From a virus: a DNA stretch of 61,090 nt. Both the position numbers and the translations under genes were made by a program. The stretch is from positions 1 through 61,090 of the IMG/VR virus record IMGVR_UViG_3300025407_001003, one strand, 5' to 3'. Every line of letters begins with the position of its first letter. Position 1 is the stretch's first letter. The notes under the pieces were generated by a model that saw only the letters and a program-made list of their open reading frames with translations, had not been told where the DNA came from and did no database searches. Below, one piece after another: positions 3,096-50,694 of this stretch.

Positions 3096-3551
3096 ATGAA
3101 ACTAATAGAAGAATACATCACAGAGTCGAAACAGAATAGACAATCACATTTGAATCTGTCTGAACCGTGTATTGAACGAGGTGGTCCGCAAAATGGAGGA
3201 TTATCGAGTTATTGTAAAGGTTTAATGGCACATTTGTTAGATACTACGATTCCGTCGGGACACAAGATACATATATGTCACGCTTGTAATAATCAAAGGT
3301 GTAGTAATCCTAATCATTTGTATTGGGGAACAGCACAAGAAAACAAGTTGGACCAAAAAACAAATGGTGAAAAAACTATTTGGGAAAGAACTGTTGAAAA
3401 ATATGGCTTAGAAGAAGCAAAGAAATTACAAGCAAAAGGTGATAAATCAGCGGGCGGAAAAGCAAATGCTGGTAAACCTAAAAGCGAAGAACATAAAAGA
3501 AAAATTGCCGCAAATCATAAAGGCGGTAAAAAAAGAAAATTGCCCCTATAG
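3096..3551 (+). CDS. HNH homing endonuclease, 151 aa
   Basis: The core HICHACNNQRCSNPNHLYWG (about residues 67-86) is a His-Cys/HNH nuclease signature with paired cysteines for zinc and the terminal N-H-L-Y-W-G seen in phage HNH enzymes. The tail GKPKSEEHKRKIAANHKGG is a NUMOD3-like DNA-binding module. The start lies six bases after a TAAATA core (3085-3090) with no ribosome binding site. The stop codon TAG lies inside the next tRNA gene, so the nuclease gene and the tRNA overlap by 10 bases. It sits in the remains of a tRNA-Leu, as expected for a tRNA-targeting homing element. Confidence 0.85.
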   Translation: MKLIEEYITESKQNRQSHLNLSEPCIERGGPQNGGLSSYCKGLMAHLLDTTIPSGHKIHICHACNNQRCSNPNHLYWGTAQENKLDQKTNGEKTIWERTVEKYGLEEAKKLQAKGDKSAGGKANAGKPKSEEHKRKIAANHKGGKKRKLPL

Positions 3552-3618
3552 CCCAATTGGTAGAGGTGATGCGCTTAGAACGCATTCAGTGTTGGTTCGA
3601 ATCCGACTAGGGGTACCA
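3542..3618 (+). tRNA. tRNA with anticodon UAG, short variable loop (Leu by anticodon)
   Basis: Acceptor GCCCCTA/TAGGGGT, anticodon stem ATGCG/CGCAT with loop CTTAGAA (anticodon UAG, reading CUA leucine codons), T arm GTTGG-TTCGAAT-CCGAC, and an encoded CCA. The variable loop is only about five bases, whereas bacterial leucine tRNAs have a long variable arm. Amino-acid identity is therefore open. Confidence 0.85.
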
Positions 3619-39138: not shown

Positions 39139-40040
39139 CATCTCGATGGGGACAACACGATCAGCTTAGAATCGAATGGAATTTAGGAAAACGTTGTAAT
39201 TACGATTGTTCATATTGCCCATCTGAAATACACGATCATAATAGTCCACATACAAATTTTGATATTTTAAAAACTACAATCGATAATTTATTAAAAATTA
39301 ATAAGCCCTTGAGAATTAGTTTTACCGGCGGTGAACCGTGCGTACATCCTCGATTTAAAGAACTAGTTGATTATGCAAAACATAAAGGAATCTACTGGGT
39401 CAATGTAACTACAAACGGAACACGCCGCCCGGAATACTATATGAGTTTAAATGTAGATCATATTGTTTTTAGTTTGCATTTCGAACATGATTGGCGTAGG
39501 GTAATGACTACTATTATTAAAGTACAAAAAGAAAGCAATAAAACAATAATGGTTAACGTAATGGTTCATCCCGATAAGATCGAAGACGCAAAATTATGTT
39601 GTTCAAGATTTCAACTATCCAATGTTAAGTACACTCTCAGGCGTATTAGATGGACACAAGGAAATCACGATTTATTTGATGACATGCGATATCATCCCGA
39701 CGATTTAGAATGGATGTTAAATCGAGAATCAACAGCACACGCTAACTGTGCTATTAATGACGGAGAATCATATGTTCACGCAAATGATATACTTAAACAT
39801 AAACTTAATAGTTTCACTAATTGGACATGCAATGCAGGAATCGAAAGTTTAATGATCAATTGGGATGGAGAGATATTCCGAGCAACATGCCGAGTGGGCG
39901 GAAGTCTTGGAAACATTTACAATAATATATATAGTTTCCCTACGGACTCGATCACTTGCACACGTAATTGGTGTACTTGTGCCGCGGATATTCCTATAAC
40001 TAAATATATTTCTTTAAATCTGCAAATTCCGGAAAAGTAG
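39126..40040 (+). CDS. Radical SAM protein with C-terminal Cys motif, module 1 gene C, 304 aa
   Basis: CNYDCSYC (CxxxCxxC, near residue 24), ISFTGGEPCVHP (SAM site), VTTNGTRR and a C-terminal auxiliary cluster region WTCNAGIESLMINWDGEIFRATC ... CTRNWCTCAADIPI. The same C-terminal pattern occurs in the genes at 41139, 47170 and 59094, so this is a recognisable subfamily. Its end overlaps the oppositely directed gene at 40000-41142 by 41 bases. Confidence 0.88.
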   Translation: MHKITSRWGQHDQLRIEWNLGKRCNYDCSYCPSEIHDHNSPHTNFDILKTTIDNLLKINKPLRISFTGGEPCVHPRFKELVDYAKHKGIYWVNVTTNGTRRPEYYMSLNVDHIVFSLHFEHDWRRVMTTIIKVQKESNKTIMVNVMVHPDKIEDAKLCCSRFQLSNVKYTLRRIRWTQGNHDLFDDMRYHPDDLEWMLNRESTAHANCAINDGESYVHANDILKHKLNSFTNWTCNAGIESLMINWDGEIFRATCRVGGSLGNIYNNIYSFPTDSITCTRNWCTCAADIPITKYISLNLQIPEK

Positions 40041-41142
40041 TAAAAAAATCATTGTTTCGGATTTTATCTTTACTAAATGTGTGTGCAAAAAAATCAGGTA
40101 ACAATTTGCTATCGTCCGACGACCACATATGAGATAAAAATAGTTTAACATACTCATTAGATGAAAATTCACTCCAATGTTCTTCAACCCGTTGTTTTAT
40201 CTCAATTGGCAATACCGTTAATTGATAGTATTTAGGATTAACCAATATAGTGTAAGTTATGCTATGAACTAACTCATTATCATTCATAAATTTATGAAGA
40301 TTTAACGCATCGAACGCATTAAGTAGTTGTATAGTTAGTGCAAGATCAATTTTTACATTAGGACAACTGTTTTTAATTAAAGTTAAATTAGAAATTATAT
40401 TGTCCCAGTTCGACGGATATCTTATATAATGGTTTCGGTTTTCACATGCATCTATACTAACACGTAATTCGATCTCATTAAAATGTGACCACATCTCAAT
40501 AATATCATAATTTTTTAATTTTATATTTGTAAGATTACTATGGTATTTTAATCGAACATTAACTTTGTTTTTATTGATAAGATATTCTAAAATCTTAAAA
40601 TGTTCTTCGATCATCATCGGTTCGCCGCCTTCGAATGCAATTTCTTCTAAGGTTTCGAGATTATCGTTAAAAAATCTATAAAAATCATCAATGTTATTAA
40701 ATGATGCAGTTTTTGGCAAGTGGTTCTCTTCTATCGCAATCGATGTGCTTAATAACGGAGAGCACATCCGGCATTTTAAATTACATAAATTAGAAAATCC
40801 TGCACCACACCAAAATGCAATATATAATTCGTGCGTTTCAATCGGAATTTTAGGCAGTAAATGCTCGTATTTTTCATTTGAGAATATTCGATGACTCTTA
40901 TGGCCAGCTTGCTCTTTTTGAATACAACGAATACAAGACGGCGGCAACTTCGACCCTGTTAAAAACTGTTGTCGAAACTCTGTCCATTTTTTATTATCAG
41001 TAGAATATATATCATATAAGGATTCTTCGATGGTTGATCCAAAAGAATACTCATGATTAATGCAACAAGGTACAGCTCTCCCATGCCATATCCTCACGCT
41101 CATGAATGGCAATATACAAAAATGTTGAGGTAAACTTTTCAT
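40000..41142 (-). CDS. Twitch-domain radical SAM protein, 380 aa
   Basis: N-terminal twitch domain (FCILPFMSVRIWHGRAVPCC ... SCIRCIQKEQ), radical SAM motif CNLKCRMC, SAM site FEGGEPMM, and a C-terminal tail IRNNDFFTTFPEFADL that matches the tail of the other twitch members. The last gene of a reverse-strand block of four radical SAM genes (44597 down to 40000), each overlapping the next by 4-8 bases. Confidence 0.87.
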   Translation of the reverse strand: MKSLPQHFCILPFMSVRIWHGRAVPCCINHEYSFGSTIEESLYDIYSTDNKKWTEFRQQFLTGSKLPPSCIRCIQKEQAGHKSHRIFSNEKYEHLLPKIPIETHELYIAFWCGAGFSNLCNLKCRMCSPLLSTSIAIEENHLPKTASFNNIDDFYRFFNDNLETLEEIAFEGGEPMMIEEHFKILEYLINKNKVNVRLKYHSNLTNIKLKNYDIIEMWSHFNEIELRVSIDACENRNHYIRYPSNWDNIISNLTLIKNSCPNVKIDLALTIQLLNAFDALNLHKFMNDNELVHSITYTILVNPKYYQLTVLPIEIKQRVEEHWSEFSSNEYVKLFLSHMWSSDDSKLLPDFFAHTFSKDKIRNNDFFTTFPEFADLKKYI

Positions 41143-42131
41143 TTATATTTTGTTACATGTGTCTCAGGTTGACATCCGCATAATGTTCGTGGACAAATGA
41201 TTGATTTAAATTCAACATCATCTAAGTTAAAATCATTATCTGAAAAAACGTTAAATATTTTACCGTTAAATATTCCTTCCTGACATGATCCTGTTACGGT
41301 ACCGTCAAAGTTTATCAATAACGTTTCTAATCCGACGTTGCATGTCCATCCTTTAAAATAATTCCATTTATTAACAATGATGGTTTCTGGACGAGCAACC
41401 ATTATTGACTCATCGTCGAATAATACCACACTCTCATATATACGCAAGTTGTTAAAGTTTTTTAATAGCCAATCCGAGTCTGGTAATCGTTTCATACTTT
41501 GTGAACAATAGTCGAGTTGATCTTGAGTATATGAATCAACGTCCATTCCGGGAGCCATTATTACTTCTTTTGTTTGTATATACCACGGATATTTGCTAGT
41601 TTTCATTTTTTCAACAGCGGCAACACACTCGTCCCATTTTTCTGCGTTCATTAACACAAGTGACGTGACTTTTAATCCTTCTTCAAATAGCGTATCTGCA
41701 ACTGCAATATGATGATCGATATCTCCATATTCTTGATGAAAACTCAAGACCGCATCATCAAAATATTTAGAATTTTCTTTCCACCACCGAATCGTTCTAG
41801 AACCGTTTGAAATAATAGTAATATAAACATTATGTGTTTTTTTTATTTCTTCGCAAAAATAACTAATATGCGGCCATAAAGATGGATCACCGCCTCCTGT
41901 GATTTGCAAATGAAATCGGGTTTTATTTAACTTGCGTTCATATATATCAAATAATTTTCTAAAATTGTTAATTACAGTATCGACATTTTTTGGGTATCTA
42001 AATTTTCCGTCTTTTTGTCCTGGAAAACAATATGAACAATCAAAGTTGCAAATATCAGTAGGCAAAAATCTTACATGTAACGTAGATTGCTCTTGAGTTG
42101 AAATTATCTTAATAGGGATACGTTTATTCAT
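41139..42131 (-). CDS. Radical SAM protein with C-terminal Cys motif, 330 aa
   Basis: CNFDCSYC cluster motif, QITGGGDPSLWP as the SAM-site variant (GGD in place of GGE), IISNGSRT, and the C-terminal auxiliary region WTCNVGLETLLINFDGTVTGSC ... CPRTLCGCQPETHVTK as in genes C of the modules. The GGGDP variant is unusual among the family here. Overlaps both neighbours by 4 bases. Confidence 0.87.
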   Translation of the reverse strand: MNKRIPIKIISTQEQSTLHVRFLPTDICNFDCSYCFPGQKDGKFRYPKNVDTVINNFRKLFDIYERKLNKTRFHLQITGGGDPSLWPHISYFCEEIKKTHNVYITIISNGSRTIRWWKENSKYFDDAVLSFHQEYGDIDHHIAVADTLFEEGLKVTSLVLMNAEKWDECVAAVEKMKTSKYPWYIQTKEVIMAPGMDVDSYTQDQLDYCSQSMKRLPDSDWLLKNFNNLRIYESVVLFDDESIMVARPETIIVNKWNYFKGWTCNVGLETLLINFDGTVTGSCQEGIFNGKIFNVFSDNDFNLDDVEFKSIICPRTLCGCQPETHVTKYK

Positions 42132-43513
42132 ACTAATCCTTTTAATTCCGGAAACGTGCTAGAAAAATCAGTTCCTCTAATTCTATCTAAATTTTTTATA
42201 TATTCAGAAAAATCTGGCAACAAATGACTCAAATCTTCACATTCGATAAAGTCGATTCCGCTGTCCCACCTTTTCCATCCGTATGAACTCACATTCCAAA
42301 AAACGTCATCGGTTGTGTAGTTTTTCTGTAACCATAGTTTAAATTCTTCAAACCGTTTTCTTAATTCTTGTTTGTATTCCAATGGCAGTATCTTTGCACT
42401 AAGGAAAGTTGGAATATATAAAAAATGCATGTTAATTAGCCCTCCTCCCATTACGAATTCTCCGGGCATAACTGATAAATTTATTTTTTTATAATTTTGT
42501 GAAATTTTCCATTTTACAAAATCTGGTAGATGCATTACATTTAATACTTGAATAGCCGTTGCAATGCTTACTACTACATTATCCGGTGTATTATCTAACA
42601 TGTGTAATGCCCTCTCAACTTCGGCCCATTTTGTAGGAAATCTTATATAATGATTTCGATCTCCATATGCATCTATACTAATTGCAAATTTAACCTGTTT
42701 AAAATAAGACCAAAGATCTATAATTTCATCAGTTAAAAATACTCCATTACTTGAGTATCTAACAACTATGTCTTTTGCATATCCTCGGCGAATAATTTCC
42801 TCCAAAAACAATTTATGTTCCTTGATCATTAATGGTTCGCCACCGGCAAAATATACTTGCTTTAAGTTTGGTATTTGATCATAAATATCGGACCAAAACG
42901 ACGGTTGCTCATACCATCGATTGTTAAACGATATGTCATCAAACTCAATTTGGCTCCTTACTACACTACTAGATGTTACAGACATTAGCTTAGAATGATC
43001 TTGTAACCATCTACTACTATCATGCGGGCTACACATTACACATTTTAAATTACACGTATTTCCTAATCTCAAGTCTAAATACCGAAATTTATTCGAGATC
43101 GAACCATCTTGATTAGTCGAAGTTACTAATTCATTAATATCTATACCTTCTTCGATCCAGTATTTTGTCTCCCATACTCTCTTACTAACCACTCCGGATG
43201 ATTCTTCTTTAAAACATTTTGTACAACTTTTTGGAATTTGATTACTTAACATTTGTAATCTTACTGATTTCATATAATCATTGTTCCATGCTTCTAAGGG
43301 AGATTCTCGTGAAAAATTAGCGGGACCGCCGTGAAAGTGTTTTACTAGCCCGATTTCGATCTCATTTGTTTCAGCGCCGCTTGCATTAGATGTGCAACAT
43401 AATCGCATATCACCGTTCGGCCTAGTTGCCAAATGAATCCATGGTAATATACAAAACGTCGATGACGAGTTCGCTGTAATTTCATCGCATAGTGATTTTA
43501 ACTCGCTAGTCAT
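42128..43513 (-). CDS. Twitch-domain radical SAM protein, 461 aa
   Basis: N-terminal twitch domain (FCILPWIHLATRPNGDMRLCC ... LEAWNND ... SCTKCFKEE), radical SAM motif CNLKCVMC, SAM site FAGGEPLM and the C-terminal tail RIRGTDFSSTFPELKGL. The largest of the twitch members. It overlaps the upstream SPASM-type radical SAM gene by 8 bases and the downstream one by 4. Confidence 0.88.
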   Translation of the reverse strand: MTSELKSLCDEITANSSSTFCILPWIHLATRPNGDMRLCCTSNASGAETNEIEIGLVKHFHGGPANFSRESPLEAWNNDYMKSVRLQMLSNQIPKSCTKCFKEESSGVVSKRVWETKYWIEEGIDINELVTSTNQDGSISNKFRYLDLRLGNTCNLKCVMCSPHDSSRWLQDHSKLMSVTSSSVVRSQIEFDDISFNNRWYEQPSFWSDIYDQIPNLKQVYFAGGEPLMIKEHKLFLEEIIRRGYAKDIVVRYSSNGVFLTDEIIDLWSYFKQVKFAISIDAYGDRNHYIRFPTKWAEVERALHMLDNTPDNVVVSIATAIQVLNVMHLPDFVKWKISQNYKKINLSVMPGEFVMGGGLINMHFLYIPTFLSAKILPLEYKQELRKRFEEFKLWLQKNYTTDDVFWNVSSYGWKRWDSGIDFIECEDLSHLLPDFSEYIKNLDRIRGTDFSSTFPELKGLV

Positions 43514-44597
43514 TTAACTTTAAAACTTCTACAAATTGATTTGACGGTTTTGATAAATTATTTTTTTCCATTTTGCCACATATTCTAGCACACATAATTA
43601 GTTTTTTTGTAGTCCAGTATTCGTTCCATAAATTCTGATATTCATAAGAATTTATTATAGTTTTAATATCATATGTTAGCGCGTGTACTCGTTCAATACC
43701 ACCGAACGAATTAATTAACTCATTATATTGATCTACAATTGTATTTCTTACCTCAGAAGCATAATCGTCGGGTTCGATATATGTATACGGAATGCTAGCA
43801 AGCCAACAACATGGAAATACATTTCGATAAGCATCGATATATATTTCTTTATTTCGATCTGCATAGCAATGAATTGTTGATGTTTCAATAACTTCCTTAT
43901 ATGAATCAATAGTATTCTTATCTATAAAGGTTAATTTGTTTGTAGTCGGGGGTTCGATATAATAAAGATGTTCATTGTTTTTATTTTTAACAGAATACCT
44001 TGGTTCTAAAACAAATCGCGAACTATTTTTAACTGTAAACTTTTTAAATCCGTACTGTTTGGCAATTTCTTTTGCTTGTTCTTCTTGGTGTTCGTTGTGT
44101 TTAAATTTTATAAAACACCACTCAGCTATTCCGCCGGCCTCAATAAATGCTAACGCATTTTGTAAAATAAGGTTGTATTTTGTACCAATTCGATAAATTT
44201 CGTGCGTATCGCCTACCCCATCTAATGCAAATATTACATTATGATTTTTTGGAAGTACCTTTGCTAATGTTTTCCACCAATCGACCTGACGGGCACTACC
44301 ATTTGTATGGATTCGCAAATATTGATCGGGAGAATTTATAGAAACATACTGACACATTTCGATAAGATCATTATTTAAAATCGGATCACCAAAATTACCA
44401 CAGAAATACATGCCTTCTATCTGATTGAGAACATCTTGTGTGATTATTTTCTTAAATTCATCAAGGGTCCAATTTTGATTTTTTATCAAAGGATTATCAA
44501 TCCCCCCGTGAATGTTCCTTGCGCACATAGGGCAACTTGCTTGACAATTATTGCTAATTTCTAGATGTATCTGTTTTAAATTTTCAAAAGTAAACAT
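43506..44597 (-). CDS. Radical SAM/SPASM protein, 363 aa
   Basis: HLEISNNCQASCPMCARN gives the cluster motif CxxxCxxC near residue 18; YFCGNFGDPILN is the SAM-site variant; IHTNGSAR and the FALDGV segment follow the usual TIM-barrel order. The C-terminal half has YIDAYRNVFPCCWLA and CARICGKM, a SPASM-like auxiliary site. It heads the reverse-strand radical SAM block. The upstream region has a TAAATA core on the reverse strand (44619-44624) 22 bases before the ATG. Confidence 0.87.
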   Translation of the reverse strand: MFTFENLKQIHLEISNNCQASCPMCARNIHGGIDNPLIKNQNWTLDEFKKIITQDVLNQIEGMYFCGNFGDPILNNDLIEMCQYVSINSPDQYLRIHTNGSARQVDWWKTLAKVLPKNHNVIFALDGVGDTHEIYRIGTKYNLILQNALAFIEAGGIAEWCFIKFKHNEHQEEQAKEIAKQYGFKKFTVKNSSRFVLEPRYSVKNKNNEHLYYIEPPTTNKLTFIDKNTIDSYKEVIETSTIHCYADRNKEIYIDAYRNVFPCCWLASIPYTYIEPDDYASEVRNTIVDQYNELINSFGGIERVHALTYDIKTIINSYEYQNLWNEYWTTKKLIMCARICGKMEKNNLSKPSNQFVEVLKLND

Positions 44598-44642
44598 AAA
44601 ATAAATATTTTTCTCAACTATTTACATAAGAAACAACATTGT

Positions 44643-45143
44643 ATGAAATTTATTGGCAATTATAATTACATCGACCCTAAATGGATTGAATATGTCTTGA
44701 GTAATCCAGGATACGGTCGTCCAAAAGAAGGTAAAAGACCCGATAGTCCCGAAGAAGAACAAGAATATACGATTGCACGAAATGCAGGGTACAATGATAA
44801 TGCAATTTATTTTTGGATGTTCGACAACTCAAACTTCCCATTCGATTTAGATCTACCATTCATTGATAAACCGTATCATTGGTGGATTACTAAAATGTTA
44901 CCGGGGAACTTTATGCCAATGCACATTGATCCACATACTGTATATCAAAAAAATAGTAAACGATTGTGGTTACCGTGGCAAGACTGGGAAGCAGGACATG
45001 TCTTTGCATATGAGGATATTGTTCTTACAAAGTATCGAAAAGGCGATGTTTGGGAATATGAATCAGCAACTGGTTTGCACGGTGCTGCCAATATCGGGCA
45101 TGTCCCTAGAATTATATTACAAGTGAGTACATATGATGTATAA
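44643..45143 (+). CDS. Putative 2OG/Fe(II) oxygenase, 166 aa
   Basis: MLPGNFMPMHIDPHTVYQ (H-x-D around residue 98), RLWLPWQDWEAGHVFAYED, and WEYESATGLHGAANIGHVPRIILQVSTYD (distal His and Arg) form a complete minimal oxygenase domain. It is similar in plan to the 5197-5721 gene, including the D-W-x-x-G-H-x-x-x-Y stretch. A TAAATA core lies 36 bases upstream. Overlaps the next gene by 11 bases. Confidence 0.75.
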   Translation: MKFIGNYNYIDPKWIEYVLSNPGYGRPKEGKRPDSPEEEQEYTIARNAGYNDNAIYFWMFDNSNFPFDLDLPFIDKPYHWWITKMLPGNFMPMHIDPHTVYQKNSKRLWLPWQDWEAGHVFAYEDIVLTKYRKGDVWEYESATGLHGAANIGHVPRIILQVSTYDV

Positions 45144-45855
45144 AAAATTATATAACAAGATCACCTCCTGGAAAAAATCATCGGTGGTGTCGTTCTATAA
45201 TAATCAACCATTGCCGGTTCTTCCCGAAACATATTTTTTTATTCACGAATATGATGATGACGGATTATATATATATGATGATCATCAGGCAATATATTAT
45301 CACAATGATGGATCAACATTTTTATTAACAGATGAATATCTTGTCTCCGACTGGTATGTATTAAAAGCGTTATATGATTCTAATACGGTTCCAATGTCAA
45401 TTCCGGTCGAATTCACCGAATATAAACATTTTGGATACTATCATTTTCAGAGTCCTACCGGGCACATTGGTGACCCTTGGATTATACAGCCTTATTATAC
45501 TACCGAATATTGGATTAAATTGGCCGATATTATTACTAATCTTATTGTTGCATTAAAAGAAGGCAACCATCCGTTTCCTTCAGATGCAATAAATCTTCCG
45601 ACATTTATCTATGATGGCGACAACAGTTATTATTCTCATGCGTCAGGAACCAATAGAATAGTGTTTAATAATACTTGTAATTTTTTTATAACTGAACAGT
45701 TTAAACGATTTAAATTATACAGTATAAATATTAGAGAAGCACTTGTATTAGATCCAAGTAGAGATGAATTGCTTTCAAATATCAACTGGACATACATTCG
45801 TAAGTATATTAAAGAAAAATGGTTACCATTAAGAATCACGAAGCCGAATTTGTAG
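45133..45855 (+). CDS. Hypothetical protein, 240 aa
   Basis: Rich in Tyr, Asp and His (FIHEYDDDGLYIYDDHQAIYY, YKHFGYYHFQSPTGHIGDPW). No family recognised. It follows the oxygenase with an overlap and is followed by a small gene that also overlaps, so they form one unit with the phosphoesterase. Confidence 0.6.
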   Translation: MMYKKLYNKITSWKKSSVVSFYNNQPLPVLPETYFFIHEYDDDGLYIYDDHQAIYYHNDGSTFLLTDEYLVSDWYVLKALYDSNTVPMSIPVEFTEYKHFGYYHFQSPTGHIGDPWIIQPYYTTEYWIKLADIITNLIVALKEGNHPFPSDAINLPTFIYDGDNSYYSHASGTNRIVFNNTCNFFITEQFKRFKLYSINIREALVLDPSRDELLSNINWTYIRKYIKEKWLPLRITKPNL

Positions 45856-46070
45856 TATTTCAAGGAACAGTTGAATCAATGAGATTTACCTCGAACTTAT
45901 GGAAATTCCAGGAAACATTTCGTCAATTGCTCGGCCCAACATCGAAAAATACTCATTTTACTATGACCTATAACGGAATCACTCGCATATTTGCAGATCC
46001 GACAAATTGGGACAATCCAACTTGTTGTGCAGCATGTCGAGAAGCAGCGAAATCACTTAAATTATCATAA
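45819..46070 (+). CDS. Hypothetical protein, 83 aa
   Basis: Contains WKFQETFRQLLGP and a Cys cluster PTCCAACREAAKSLKL near the C-terminus. The start lies 37 bases inside the previous gene; an internal start is possible. Its stop overlaps the next ATG (TAATG). Confidence 0.55.
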   Translation: MVTIKNHEAEFVVFQGTVESMRFTSNLWKFQETFRQLLGPTSKNTHFTMTYNGITRIFADPTNWDNPTCCAACREAAKSLKLS

Positions 46071-46618
46071 TGGCCATTTTCCTCATAAGTGACACACATT
46101 TTGAGCATACATCTATGTATGAAAAGGTATATGCTGGAAACAGATTACGACCTTGGAATACCTATGAAGAAGGTGATAATATAATAATTGAACGTTGGAA
46201 CAACACCGTAAATGAATCCGATACTGTGTTTCATTTAGGCGATATTATCGGTCAAACTGAAGAGTCTTTATCAGTATTAGCTCGATTAAATGGCAACAAG
46301 GTTTTAATTAGGGGAAATCATGATACAGGAGATTTAGCATTATATACAAAATACTTTTCTAATGTATATGGATGCTACGAACTTGGTGATCTTTTACTTA
46401 CCCACATACCAGCTCACCCTATGCTTCGATGTAAAAATCTAGCAAATGTACACGGTCACATGCACGGATTAATGATGGATGTGGATCCTTGGTACTTTGA
46501 TGTATCGGTAGAGGTCATTAATTACACTCCAATTTTACTAGAAGATCTTCTTATCAAAATTAAAGAAAGACAAGAATCACCGAATCAATTTACCTATAAT
46601 CATATATCTTGTATATAA
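46070..46618 (+). CDS. Calcineurin-like metallophosphoesterase, 182 aa
   Basis: All metal-binding motifs occur in order: SDTHFEH (residues 7-13), HLGDIIG, RGNHD, THIPAH and VHGHMHG. This small form resembles phage and bacterial YfcE-like or DUF-type phosphodiesterases. Substrate not predictable from sequence; nucleotide 2',3'-cyclic phosphates are one option. It converges on the methyltransferase gene with an overlap of 42 bases. Confidence 0.9.
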   Translation: MAIFLISDTHFEHTSMYEKVYAGNRLRPWNTYEEGDNIIIERWNNTVNESDTVFHLGDIIGQTEESLSVLARLNGNKVLIRGNHDTGDLALYTKYFSNVYGCYELGDLLLTHIPAHPMLRCKNLANVHGHMHGLMMDVDPWYFDVSVEVINYTPILLEDLLIKIKERQESPNQFTYNHISCI

Positions 46619-47179
46619 CGGTAATGCTAGTTCCCCTGCCCATAGTTCCTGAAGATGACATTGCTGTTTAAATTCATCTAACGAATGCGCAATTCTACAA
46701 TGTTCGTCAATCTCATAATTATTACTCTGGACTACTACTAAACTATCAGGCAATAGTAATTCTAACCATTGTTCATACGCTGCTTGTGAAATGTGTTCGG
46801 CGCTAGTATTAATGGCAATAGGATTAGGCCCGAAATTAGGATATGTTTCCATTGGTCGACAAACTGATCGAAACCTTCCTTGAATTTCTTCAACCTTGTT
46901 CATAGTAACAGCCGTTTCTAAACAATCAATGTCGATATCAACACTTTCGATTTTGTCTATAGGAATATCTGATTGGAATAACATACTAGCTAAAACGCCT
47001 ACCCAACCACCATATATAGTAATATTCGCTGGGTGGTCGATGTACGGACGTAAATTGTTAATTAGCCATTCTTTACTTTTTAATTGTCCTCCCCAAAACG
47101 CTTCTAATGTTCGCAATGGATTCTCACTATTTCGAATAGCATCCATCCAAAATTTAATATGATCTAAATTTATCTGCAT
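46577..47179 (-). CDS. Class I SAM-dependent methyltransferase-like protein, 200 aa
   Basis: NITIYGGWVGVLASMLFQ (motif I-like glycine loop), IESVDIDIDCLETA (acidic motif II), NTSAEHIS (motif IV position) and LVVVQSNNY follow the class I order. Proteins of this kind in phages are of unknown specificity. It is upstream-coupled to the radical SAM gene at 47170 with a 10-base overlap, so it may act in the same pathway. Confidence 0.7.
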   Translation of the reverse strand: MQINLDHIKFWMDAIRNSENPLRTLEAFWGGQLKSKEWLINNLRPYIDHPANITIYGGWVGVLASMLFQSDIPIDKIESVDIDIDCLETAVTMNKVEEIQGRFRSVCRPMETYPNFGPNPIAINTSAEHISQAAYEQWLELLLPDSLVVVQSNNYEIDEHCRIAHSLDEFKQQCHLQELWAGELALPLYTRYMIIGKLIR

Positions 47180-48141
47180 TTTGGTATTTTACTATCTGCT
47201 GAACTAACACATCTCGGAGTTGTGCATATAACTGGATTATTAAATAACTCAAACCCATCAGTTAATGTACCTAATGGTTCATCATAACAGCTATAACTCC
47301 TTTTAACTTCATTCCCACGTATAACTACACTTTGAAATCCACTGTTGCAATTCCACCCGTTAAACTGATTAAAATTAAATGCGTTAAACCGTTCAGCTTG
47401 ATCAAATTGATAATTATTATCATTTTTATCAAATAACGATATTTGATATAATTCTTTTCCGCAAACATGTTGAGGAAATCCCTCTTGCATTAAATCAATC
47501 ATACGATCAGTATAGCCATCAATAATAGAACTAGCAGTAACATTACTTTGAGGTTTTAATGTAACATTAATCCCTTTGTCGTGGAATCGTTTACATCGAT
47601 CATACAAATCATAAAATTGACTAGGAATCATAACTTGATTAATAGTTACAAATATTCCCTGCTCCATGAGCATTAAAATTTTATTAGCAAATTCTATTTC
47701 ATTGGCAAATTCTGTATGAAAACTCGCTGTAATCGATACCCTATCAAGCCATCTTGTAGCGGTTGTCCACTTTTTCCAATATTTATAGGGCGGACTTAGA
47801 TTTGTTGTCATATGTAATGACTGATATGATTGGCTATCATTCAAATAACTGATTAATTTATTTAGGTTCTTATATACTGTAGGTTCTCCACCGCTAAACG
47901 ACCAATGAAATTCTGTAAATCCATTTAATCGAGCTTGATATTTAATTTGATTAATTGTATTATAATATACATTCAAATCTAAATAATCCGGAATTGACGA
48001 ATTTGCGTAAGGCCAACAGTAACTACACTTGTAATTGCAAAATCTTCCTAATATCCAACTTACAGAAAATAACGGTTGATCAATCATTGTCCTTTGACCG
48101 AATCGAACGATATTATTAAAAGGAATGTTGGAAAAACTCAT
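47170..48141 (-). CDS. Radical SAM protein with C-terminal Cys motif, 323 aa
   Basis: CNYKCSYC cluster motif, WSFSGGEPTVYK SAM site, HMTTNLSPP, and the C-terminal WNCNSGFQSVVIRGNEVKRSYSC ... CTTPRCVSSAD region that matches the subfamily of module gene C. A TAAATA core on the reverse strand (48147-48152) ends six bases before the ATG without a ribosome binding site. Confidence 0.87.
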   Translation of the reverse strand: MSFSNIPFNNIVRFGQRTMIDQPLFSVSWILGRFCNYKCSYCWPYANSSIPDYLDLNVYYNTINQIKYQARLNGFTEFHWSFSGGEPTVYKNLNKLISYLNDSQSYQSLHMTTNLSPPYKYWKKWTTATRWLDRVSITASFHTEFANEIEFANKILMLMEQGIFVTINQVMIPSQFYDLYDRCKRFHDKGINVTLKPQSNVTASSIIDGYTDRMIDLMQEGFPQHVCGKELYQISLFDKNDNNYQFDQAERFNAFNFNQFNGWNCNSGFQSVVIRGNEVKRSYSCYDEPLGTLTDGFELFNNPVICTTPRCVSSADSKIPKCR

Positions 48142-48185: not shown

Positions 48186-48845
48186 ATGATACCGATATAC
48201 ATAGGTTACGATCCAAAAGAAGCACTTGCTTATCATGTATGTACAAATAGTATTATAAGACATGCTACATCTCCCGTGTCTTTCATACCACTATCATTGA
48301 ATACATTATGCAATTATACTGAGACGCACAATGACGGTAGTAATCAGTTTATCTATACTAGATTTCTAGTTCCTAGTTTACAAAATTATAAAGGATGGGC
48401 TATCTATATAGATAGCGATATAATTCTAAAAGCAGATATTGCAGAATTATGGAATTTAAGAGATAACTCTAAAGCAGTGATGTGTGTGCATCATGATTAT
48501 AAAACAACATCATCTTTTAAATATTTTGGAAATAAAAATGAAGATTATCCTAGAAAAAATTGGTCGAGTGTAATTCTTTGGAATTGCGATCATAAATTAA
48601 ATCAAAATTTATCACCAAGAATCGTTCAACAACATCCCGGATCATATTTACACCGGTTTTCTTGGATTCCAGATACGTTTATAGGAGAAATCCCGAATAC
48701 ATGGAATTGGCTTCCTGACGAATTTGGCACATCAGAGAATGCAAAACTGATACATTATACGTTAGGTGTTCCTGATATCTATACTAATGTAGCGATGGCT
48801 AGCGATTGGCAACAAGAAAAAAATCATGCGCTCAAAATTGGTTGA
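48186..48845 (+). CDS. Glycosyltransferase family 8-like protein, 219 aa
   Basis: GYDPKEALAYHVCTNSI at the N-terminus and AIYIDSDIILKADIAELW with the D-x-D metal motif (Asp76, Asp78) are typical of GT-A family 8 enzymes. KLIHYTLG near the end matches the H-x-x-G-x-x-K-P-W-type metal ligand in reduced form. A TAAATA core (48176-48181) lies five bases before the ATG. Its TGA stop is part of the -35 box of the following promoter. Confidence 0.8.
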   Translation: MIPIYIGYDPKEALAYHVCTNSIIRHATSPVSFIPLSLNTLCNYTETHNDGSNQFIYTRFLVPSLQNYKGWAIYIDSDIILKADIAELWNLRDNSKAVMCVHHDYKTTSSFKYFGNKNEDYPRKNWSSVILWNCDHKLNQNLSPRIVQQHPGSYLHRFSWIPDTFIGEIPNTWNWLPDEFGTSENAKLIHYTLGVPDIYTNVAMASDWQQEKNHALKIG

Positions 48846-48870
48846 CGCATGATGATAGTTTTTGTATACT
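48842..48870 (+). promoter_or_regulatory. Sigma70-type promoter of the tRNA-like gene
   Basis: TTGACG (48842-48847) and TATACT (48865-48870) with a 17-base spacer; the glycosyltransferase TGA lies inside the -35 box. The start site would be at about the first base of the tRNA-like gene. Confidence 0.8.
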
Positions 48871-48876
48871 TTAACT

Positions 48877-48976
48877 GTAGACGTGAGCGGAATTGGTATA
48901 CCTCCTCCCTTCGGGGAGGGAAGTGGGCTAGGCTATAACGCTGCCTTTGGAGGTTCGAATCCTCCCGTCTGCACCA
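48877..48976 (+). tRNA. Atypical 100-base tRNA-like gene with an extra UUCG hairpin
   Basis: Acceptor GTAGACG/CGTCTGC, a D arm with GAATTGGTATA, T arm GGAGG-TTCGAAT-CCTCC, discriminator A and encoded CCA are all clear. Between D arm and T arm there is first a strong CTCCC-TTCG-GGGAG hairpin, then a second stem GGGC/GCCT around GCTATAACG. Neither loop is a normal seven-base anticodon loop with U33 in a perfect stem; the best alternative (loop CTTCGGG, UCG) needs a mismatched stem. Its D and T arms resemble leucine or serine tRNAs. Identity unresolved. Confidence 0.65.
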
Positions 48977-49001: not shown

Positions 49002-49334
49002 ATGAAGGCTCTTTTATTTTTTCTTTTGATTCCTACTTCAGTTTTTGCTTGGCAAGACGATCCATACGAGTTATTCAATTCATCAAGTACAATGTACAAT
49101 AGTTCACAAATTGAAATTCATTCTGTTAATACTGACAACGATGGAATGTGGAAAGTATGTGAAAAAGAAAGTCGTAAACGAGGATTCAATGGTTTTCCTA
49201 ACAGGGTATATGCCTGTAGTTTTTGGAATGAAGGCGGACAACATAAATGTTCTATCTATATTCCTAAATACACCGACATGCATCAACTAGGACACGAAAT
49301 AAGGCATTGTTTTTACGGAGCATGGCACCCGTGA
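49002..49334 (+). CDS. Secreted HExxH protein (putative metalloprotease), 110 aa
   Basis: A clear signal peptide (MKALLFFLLIPTSVFA, cleavage after VFA) is followed by a small domain with five cysteines and GHEIRHCFYG, a zincin-type H-E-x-x-H near residue 97. Small secreted proteins of this kind occur in T4-like phages; they may cleave a periplasmic protein or act in superinfection exclusion or lysis. The stop overlaps the next gene. Confidence 0.75.
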   Translation: MKALLFFLLIPTSVFAWQDDPYELFNSSSTMYNSSQIEIHSVNTDNDGMWKVCEKESRKRGFNGFPNRVYACSFWNEGGQHKCSIYIPKYTDMHQLGHEIRHCFYGAWHP

Positions 49335-49805: not shown

Positions 49806-50027
49806 ATGGCTAAAAAAGATGATGTTATTGAATTGAAGGGAGTAGTAAAAGAAGTATTACCAGGTAATATGTACCGGGTTAAGGTAGAGGAACTCCCTGA
49901 TTTGCTCCTGTGTTACCTTGGAGGTAAATTAAAACAGCACAAGATTAGAATTATCTTAGGTGATGCTGTAAAACTCGAAATCAGTCCATATGATTTAACC
50001 AAAGGAAGGGTAACATACCGATTATGA
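49806..50027 (+). CDS. infA: Translation initiation factor IF-1, 73 aa
   Basis: MAKKDDVIELKGVVKEVLPG, then MYRVKVE, and IRIILGDAVKLEISPYDLTKGR match bacterial IF-1 along the whole length (72 residues in E. coli), including the OB-fold G-D-x-V-x-V/L-E-x-S/T-P-Y-D-L-x-K-G-R signature. IF-1 binds the ribosomal A site with IF-2 and IF-3 during initiation. A phage copy could bias initiation toward phage mRNAs, particularly leaderless ones. No ribosome binding site of the usual strength is visible before the ATG. Confidence 0.95.
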   Translation: MAKKDDVIELKGVVKEVLPGNMYRVKVEELPDLLLCYLGGKLKQHKIRIILGDAVKLEISPYDLTKGRVTYRL

Positions 50028-50028
50028 C

Positions 50029-50694
50029 ATGAATGGGCTAATGGAAACTATCTGTCTAATATGTAATGCTATTAGACTTAACACCGAAAGAGGAGTTTGT
50101 TTCCATAAGCTAATGTCTATTATTCGCAAAGAATTTCGAATACACGGAATTGATCTACACATCCGATCTCATAGAAGACAATCATTAGATCCCGCTGAAT
50201 ATTATGTTAATGCCTATTACGATTCGGAAAATGATCGTAATTTTGATATAGCTATTGAAGTAATCATTTATCATAATTTTAAGAAAAAAATCGACTGGGA
50301 TCGATATCATGTCACAGAATTACTAATACAAATTTTTGATGCAGTTATCCATGAATACAAGCATCGTAGACAAAGCATTAAAAGAAATCATAAAAGTTTT
50401 TGGGCAACATCGTCTGTTGTAAACGAATATTTGAGCGATCCGGACGAAATAGATGCATATGCGTTCTCGATTGCTGTAGAACTTTGTCGATCATTGGGCA
50501 AATATCGCGCATTAAAATACATGTCTAAGTTAACTACATTAAGTAGGATTAAAATTCGAACAAGATACGCGAGTCCTACTTTATACGGGTACGTCAAGGA
50601 ATTTCAATCAATTGATCATCCTGTTCTTATCAAACTTTCCAAAAAAATTTATAAAAGATTACTAAAGGTTGACACTGACACTATTTTCATGTAA
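50029..50694 (+). CDS. Hypothetical protein with HExxH motif, 221 aa
   Basis: IFDAVIHEYKHRRQS (residues 101-115) contains H-E-x-x-H in a helix, suggesting a zincin-type peptidase, supported by acidic residues downstream (YLSDPDEIDAYAF). No signal peptide. The start at 50029 follows the IF-1 stop; a second ATG at 50041 is possible. The promoter for the next gene lies inside its last codons. Confidence 0.6.
   Translation: MNGLMETICLICNAIRLNTERGVCFHKLMSIIRKEFRIHGIDLHIRSHRRQSLDPAEYYVNAYYDSENDRNFDIAIEVIIYHNFKKKIDWDRYHVTELLIQIFDAVIHEYKHRRQSIKRNHKSFWATSSVVNEYLSDPDEIDAYAFSIAVELCRSLGKYRALKYMSKLTTLSRIKIRTRYASPTLYGYVKEFQSIDHPVLIKLSKKIYKRLLKVDTDTIFM

Follow-up and report, generated by a model that had tools for sequence, protein, structure and literature searches.

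The window analysed here, that is, the whole 61,090-base stretch of an IMG/VR virus record (IMGVR_UViG_3300025407_001003), carries on its plus strand at 48877-48976 a 100-nt tRNA-like RNA of class II type that lacks an anticodon. The RNA begins with the acceptor strand GUAGACG and U8, continues through a D arm whose loop (GGAAUUGGUA) is tRNA-Leu-like, a CUCCC-UUCG-GGGAG hairpin, a long bulged variable arm and a T arm, and ends with CGUCUGC, A73 and CCA. The 13 ordinary tRNA genes of the window are located at 1.6-16.1 kb, ~33 kb distant from it. A preliminary description, made from the letters alone, had listed the acceptor, D and T arms, the CCA, the UUCG hairpin, a second irregular stem and a promoter starting at the first base; all were recovered, with the irregular stem corresponding to the variable arm and the promoter holding across the family of relatives (108/110 loci). 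The promoter and the component parts of the RNA are as follows, where counts out of 119 refer to the distinct relatives among the matches listed and counts of loci are likewise taken from the at least 184 loci at which relatives were found.

48842-48847 (+): -35 element TTGACG; TTGAC at the same distance in 97-99% of 110 distinct loci
48865-48870 (+): -10 element TATACT, ending at -7 and 17 bp from the -35 element; same spacing and position in 108/110 loci
48877 (+): predicted transcription start, a G, from the promoter position
48877-48976 (+): whole tRNA-like RNA, 100 nt; 95.3 bits with covariance model R1, and covariation
48877-48883 (+): acceptor stem, 5′ strand GUAGACG; 7/7 pairs (one G-U) with 48966-48972
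48884-48904 (+): U8 and D arm, from the sequence
48891-48892 (+): A14 and A15; invariant in 119/119
48895-48898 (+): G18, G19, U20 and A20a, from the sequence; also recovered when not used as bait
48905-48918 (+): hairpin CUCCC-UUCG-GGGAG in the anticodon-arm position, from sequence and covariation
48904 and 48919 (+): ends of the same hairpin read as CCUCCC-UUCG-GGGAGG, if C48904 lies outside the D stem
48925-48946 (+): long variable arm of two stacked stems that include a UA bulge; two-sided changes in 8/9 pairs
48948 (+): U48, Levitt partner of A15; U in 119/119
48949-48965 (+): T arm GGAGG-UUCGAAU-CCUCC; 100% paired
48966-48972 (+): acceptor stem, 3′ strand CGUCUGC, pairing with 48877-48883
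48973 (+): discriminator A73; 119/119
48974-48976 (+): CCA end; 116/119

This RNA is a member of a conserved family of tRNA-like RNAs from large uncultured phages, which are almost certainly real and non-decoding. Pattern searches of IMG/VR yielded at least 119 distinct relatives, 94-121 nt in length, at at least 184 loci. A degenerate pattern anchored on G18G19, CUUCGG and the T loop resulted in 69 IMG/VR stretches, mostly close relatives, and two further patterns, one on the D arm and one on the 3′ half only, both contributed matches listed to this set. Searching with the 3′ half alone returned an identical 5′ half in every case among the matches listed, demonstrating that the conservation of the D arm is not an artefact of the bait. 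With the covariance model, the next-best match in the window reached only 29.8 bits; scanning of 27 whole records showed a single strong match of 86-120 bits per genome in the 26 family phages (26/26; records up to 356 kb), the next-best matches (≤41 bits) being ordinary tRNAs, and no family RNA in the twenty-seventh record, L115, a chance pattern match.

Beyond these records, a tight pattern gave no match in 84,980 GTDB genomes and a loose one only tRNA-like matches of ≤37 bits. The RNA found no relative by blastn among the INPHARED isolate phages, only T-arm matches to ordinary tRNAs, and neither did two window proteins by tblastn in isolate phages, where the DNA ligase matched distant ligases only; for the relatives of the neighbouring glycosyltransferase, no tRNA was reported by ARAGORN in the first ~28 loci scanned. 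Rfam holds no such family. A permissive Rfam scan of the window RNA gave tRNA-Sec as its best family (30.1 bits against a threshold of 47) and nothing else, the relatives L091, L170 and L159 gave no hit at all to E 0.01, and the Rfam tRNA model placed 12 of the 13 ordinary window tRNAs above its threshold and the tRNA-like RNA below it. The phage RNA family appears to be previously undescribed; the open-access literature, outside which most subscription papers fall, yielded no description of such a natural family.

Two candidates at the margin of the family were examined. An 84-nt tRNA-like RNA (L004:9480-9563, minus strand) with a family-like D loop and no obvious anticodon arm was not accepted, its 33.7 bits lying in the range of ordinary tRNAs; a phage-encoded tmRNA (L004:10317-10693, minus strand; 76 bits) is situated ~0.8 kb from it. 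A search for relatives with an altered D stem gave a single match, which proved to be another kind of RNA, its 7-nt loop looking normal. Separately, a cluster of 20 tRNAs in another phage contains a ~101-nt tRNA (L136:13187-13287, minus strand; 52.4 bits) in which the D arm is followed by an additional hairpin, AAUUAC-UUCG-GUAAUU.

Covariation was computed on 69 aligned family sequences, with shuffles and slid partners as controls. The drawn structure was 97.8% paired, with two-sided changes in 19 of 29 pairs and 244 compensatory cells, and its covariation score of 0.393 compared with 0.139 for shuffled sequences (0/500 as high) and ≤0.08 for slid partners. Two-sided changes were present in five of the seven acceptor columns (99.2% paired), three of the four outer pairs of the hairpin at the anticodon position, eight of the nine pairs in the two stems of the variable arm and three of the five pairs of the T stem (100% paired). 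This strong covariation indicates that the structure is under selection. The single-sequence folding energy of the window RNA was unremarkable (z = -1.65), and the case for the RNA therefore rests not on folding energy but on the 119 homologues, the covariation and the promoter at a fixed distance. Features of decoding tRNAs are present in the family as well, namely the 7-bp acceptor, the 5-bp T stem with its UUCGANU loop, and CCA.

The part that is missing is the anticodon arm, in whose place the family keeps the outer stem of a hairpin while the apex is swapped among UUCG, GCAA, GAAA, CUUG, UUUG, ACCCC, CUUAAAAAA and others. Predicted apical loops measure 3-15 nt and in 0/119 relatives 7 nt, and a 5+7+5 arm with U33 could be drawn in 2/119 (chance overlaps with other stems) compared with 12/13 ordinary tRNAs of the window. 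The label Pro(GGG) given to the window RNA by ARAGORN was discarded, as the anticodon stem is mismatched and position 33 is C instead of U; an alternative anticodon arm, AGGCU-AUAACGC-UGCCU ('Val AAC'), which arises when the window is read alone, is the covarying variable-arm stem. The intron-like insertion that the preliminary description had entertained was likewise rejected, since at this position relatives of minimal length (94-96 nt) have just a hairpin with a CUUG or UUCG tetraloop and leave no room for an intron, removal of the variable part creates no 7-nt loop, and ARAGORN with introns allowed returns the same broken arm. Its suggestion of a tRNA with an expanded arm was right as to the long variable arm (~22-24 nt) and wrong in that the anticodon itself is absent, whereas its third option, another tRNA mimic, is supported; the counter-finding named there, a normal anticodon in a standard class II fold, was returned by neither ARAGORN nor Rfam.

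In 57/119 relatives the arm contains an AGUA/GAA bulged-G motif, which in 50 of these takes the form CUCCUAGUA...GAACGGAG. In these 50, for example L091:3031-3141 (minus strand), CUCCUAGUA...GAACGGAG resembles the stem and bulged G of the 23S sarcin-ricin loop, with the GAGA tetraloop replaced. The E. coli 23S sequence reads CUCCUAGUACGAGAGGACCGGAG / CUGCUCCUAGUACGAGAGGACCGGAGUGGA (PMC13351119), and the likeness to CUGCUCCUAGUACGAGAGGACCGGAGUGGA in the 50 relatives concerns the motif only. Because the other relatives and the window copy are without the motif, we treat the resemblance as a structural module, which may be just a stable bulged-G module.

In E. coli, leucine identity is specified by A73, A15-U48, G18G19 and A20a rather than by the anticodon, and tRNA-Leu without its anticodon arm is still charged by the leucyl-tRNA synthetase, LeuRS (PMC9976931). 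All elements of this set were matched by the family, in which A73, U48 and A14A15 are each found in 119/119 relatives, the D-loop GGUA is essentially invariant, also in the relatives found from the 3′ half alone, and CCA is present in 116/119. A73 was part of none of the search patterns, and U48 and A14A15 were each left free in at least one search. In a comparison set of 283 distinct ordinary tRNAs from the window and 11 related phages, the combination of A14A15, U48 and A73 was present in 32/32 Leu, 0/24 Ser and 3/8 Tyr tRNAs, and 16 of the 25 ordinary tRNAs nearest to the family model by score were tRNA-Leu. Based on the identity set and these nearest tRNAs, the RNA very probably derives from tRNA-Leu, and its leucylation in vivo by the host LeuRS appears, with less assurance, the somewhat likelier outcome.

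The ordinary tRNAs of these phages have peculiarities of their own. Several tRNA-Leu genes are only 77-79 nt long and have lost the long variable arm (window 3542-3618; also L422, L424, L426 and L428). In several related phages, tRNA-Ile(UAU)-like genes of 92-99 nt display an unusually long, class II-like variable region (for example L425:7832-7930, plus strand; 92 nt in L418, L420 and L427).

The promoter is as constant as the RNA. In the 110 distinct sequences upstream of the RNA, positions -35 to -31 read TTGAC in 97-99% and positions -12 to -7 read T-A-T-A-A/C-T, with a spacer of 17 bp and the -10 element ending at -7 in 108/110 loci. Because the two elements are fixed at one distance, RNA position 1 is the expected transcription start of this near-consensus sigma-70 promoter. 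No terminator is evident after the CCA and the next start codon usually lies ~20-32 nt downstream, which makes the RNA the probable opening unit of an operon. Genes that follow it in the window are listed below.

49002-49334 (+): following gene, 110 aa, with an apparent signal peptide and an HExxH-like motif (HEIRH); start 25 nt after CCA
49806-50027 (+): homologue of translation initiation factor IF-1, 73 aa; PF01176 63.6 bits at 49827-50021
50029-50694: protein of cluster c4; median pairwise identity 47%

In 122 loci (among the loci listed), the gene next downstream belongs to the cluster of the 110-aa gene; in several lineages other genes replace it, and the RNA and promoter are unchanged. 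An IF-1 homologue is encoded in 10/10 related phages tested, usually ~1 kb downstream of the RNA, and huge phages have been reported to carry IF1 and IF3 (PMC7162821). Its candidacy as an obligate partner is weakened by the phages G003 and G008, where 35-46 kb separate the two and physical linkage is thus not obligatory. The family is old, as the neighbouring c4 proteins share a median identity of only 47%, while the D arm of the RNA is identical across the family. Upstream, the minus strand of the window carries five genes for radical SAM proteins at 40000-48141, two of them with SPASM domains, and in 112 loci (among the loci listed) a radical SAM gene cluster on the opposite strand directly precedes the RNA.

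We consider the RNA to be, with reasonable probability, a non-decoding, leucine-type, chargeable tRNA-like RNA, that is, a free-standing derivative of tRNA-Leu. Having no anticodon, it cannot decode, and it could be charged by LeuRS because the bacterial enzyme reads A73 and the elbow rather than the anticodon. In the mechanism that we propose, host RNA polymerase would transcribe the RNA early and from G1, so that no 5′ trimming by RNase P would be needed; the transcript would continue into the next genes, with its 3′ end freed at the CCA; host LeuRS would add leucine, EF-Tu may bind the leucylated RNA, and the RNA would occupy one of the host's tRNA-handling factors (LeuRS, EF-Tu, or an enzyme that cuts or senses tRNAs) during the takeover of translation. 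The occupation of a host factor is the weakest step of this mechanism, and a role as decoy or titrator, rather than as a translation substrate, is put forward as the most likely one, but tentatively. A further and rather doubtful possibility is a new class of leaderless leucyl-tRNA-like regulatory RNAs of phages, which LeuRS would charge without proper editing, the anticodon arm needed for editing being gone, and which would feed EF-Tu or another partner with charged, non-decoding tRNA and thereby reprogram host translation, with a sarcin-ricin-like element displayed at the anticodon position in some lineages.

Several observations weigh against a chargeable leucine-type RNA acting in trans. 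The D-stem pairs never vary and thus give the D stem neither support nor opposition from covariation, and the core may not pack exactly like that of tRNA-Leu, given an additional nucleotide in the D arm and a linker of just one or two bases after the acceptor. The combination of A14A15, U48 and A73 is not unique to leucine, as certain phage tRNAs of class I (Ile, Lys, Met, Thr and Arg) have it too, though their synthetases read the anticodon. A phage-encoded class I synthetase of the Leu/Ile/Val kind (including LeuRS), Leu/Phe transferase or SmpB was found in none of the phages tested, so that any partner must come from the host or be an unknown protein. Lastly, the RNA gene always heads an operon, which makes a cis role possible.

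Such a cis role would be that of a 5′ leader, in which the tRNA-like fold opens the operon mRNA and protects, processes or times it, serving as a handle for RNases P, Z or E or for CCA enzymes. The promoter start at nucleotide 1, the short distance to the next start codon with no terminator between and the shared first downstream gene of the 122 loci would all suit a leader, but RNA and promoter do not change where the next gene has been exchanged, which has happened in several ways, and a simple leader has no need of a conserved CCA, A73, U48 and A14A15; we therefore hold it to be unlikely, though worth keeping in view.

The RNA could also act as a decoy for host anti-phage tRNA nucleases or sensors, the tRNA body binding the enzyme and offering no anticodon to cut. 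Competitive inhibition of an anticodon nuclease has been proposed for the tRNA-like RNA YrlA (PMC7790460), and the 23-36 tRNAs per phage in the regions read are consistent with a tRNA arms race. However, anticodon nucleases usually read the anticodon stem-loop, which is the part absent from the family RNA, and its presence once per genome and its strictly leucine-type elbow point to a single specific partner, leaving this decoy quite unlikely. A role as donor of leucine in a reaction outside the ribosome (N-terminal leucylation, or aminoacylation of peptides or lipids), with the anticodon dropped because ribosomal use would be wasteful, would agree with the leucine identity set and with the several radical SAM/SPASM genes that adjoin the RNA in most loci; yet these neighbours are not universal, the 10 phages examined for a Leu/Phe transferase have none, and no known aminoacyl-tRNA-using enzyme was identified near the RNA, so that we judge it improbable. 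A tRNA-Leu gene in decay, or an artefact of assembly, for which only the absent anticodon and the sequence nearness to tRNA-Leu speak, can be dismissed, as it is refuted by the covariation (244 compensatory cells) and opposed by the 119 intact relatives, by the invariant promoter and by a D arm that is identical beside proteins whose median identity is 47%.

RNAs that LeuRS charges although they have no anticodon are known as laboratory constructs, but we found no described natural family of this kind. That the family is old, single-copy and strongly selected argues for an important role outside decoding. The family would let one examine, in a natural setting, how much the body of a tRNA and its leucine identity set can achieve once the anticodon is gone, and it points towards an as yet unknown step by which large phages take over host translation. 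The tRNA gene finders overlook the RNA or mislabel it as tRNA-Pro.

Among known RNAs, tRNA-Sec (RF01852) resembles the family in its length and long variable arm and is the best Rfam match of the window RNA, which nevertheless lies below the threshold and is without the UCA anticodon; moreover, tRNA-Sec has an 8-bp acceptor and a 6-bp D stem, in contrast to the 7-bp acceptor and 4-bp bulged D stem found here. Like tmRNA (RF00023), the family RNA is tRNA-like and does not decode through an anticodon, but it has no mRNA-like domain or tag reading frame, possesses a full class II variable arm and is a third of the size (94-121 nt); ARAGORN and Rfam reported no tmRNA here, and no phage SmpB was found in the phages tested. 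Some bacterial Y RNAs of the YrlA type occur in phages, and YrlA acts with the Ro protein Rsr and does not end in a CCA acceptor, whereas conservation in the family RNA falls on the acceptor, A73 and CCA. The likeness to YrlA is that of a non-coding tRNA mimic with a tRNA-like domain (PMC7790460). By the features tested, the family RNA is not a decoding tRNA, tRNA-Sec, tmRNA or an intron-bearing tRNA. Class II tRNA-Leu (RF00005) shares with it the acceptor, the D-loop GGAA..UGGUA, the long variable arm, the T arm, A73-CCA and A15-U48, and the phages' own tRNA-Leu are the nearest ordinary tRNAs by model score. The family RNA differs in having a hairpin of variable length instead of an anticodon loop, an extra D-stem base, its own promoter starting at nucleotide 1 and, in the mapped records, a position tens of kilobases from the ordinary tRNA cluster; it is like the body of tRNA-Leu minus the reading head.
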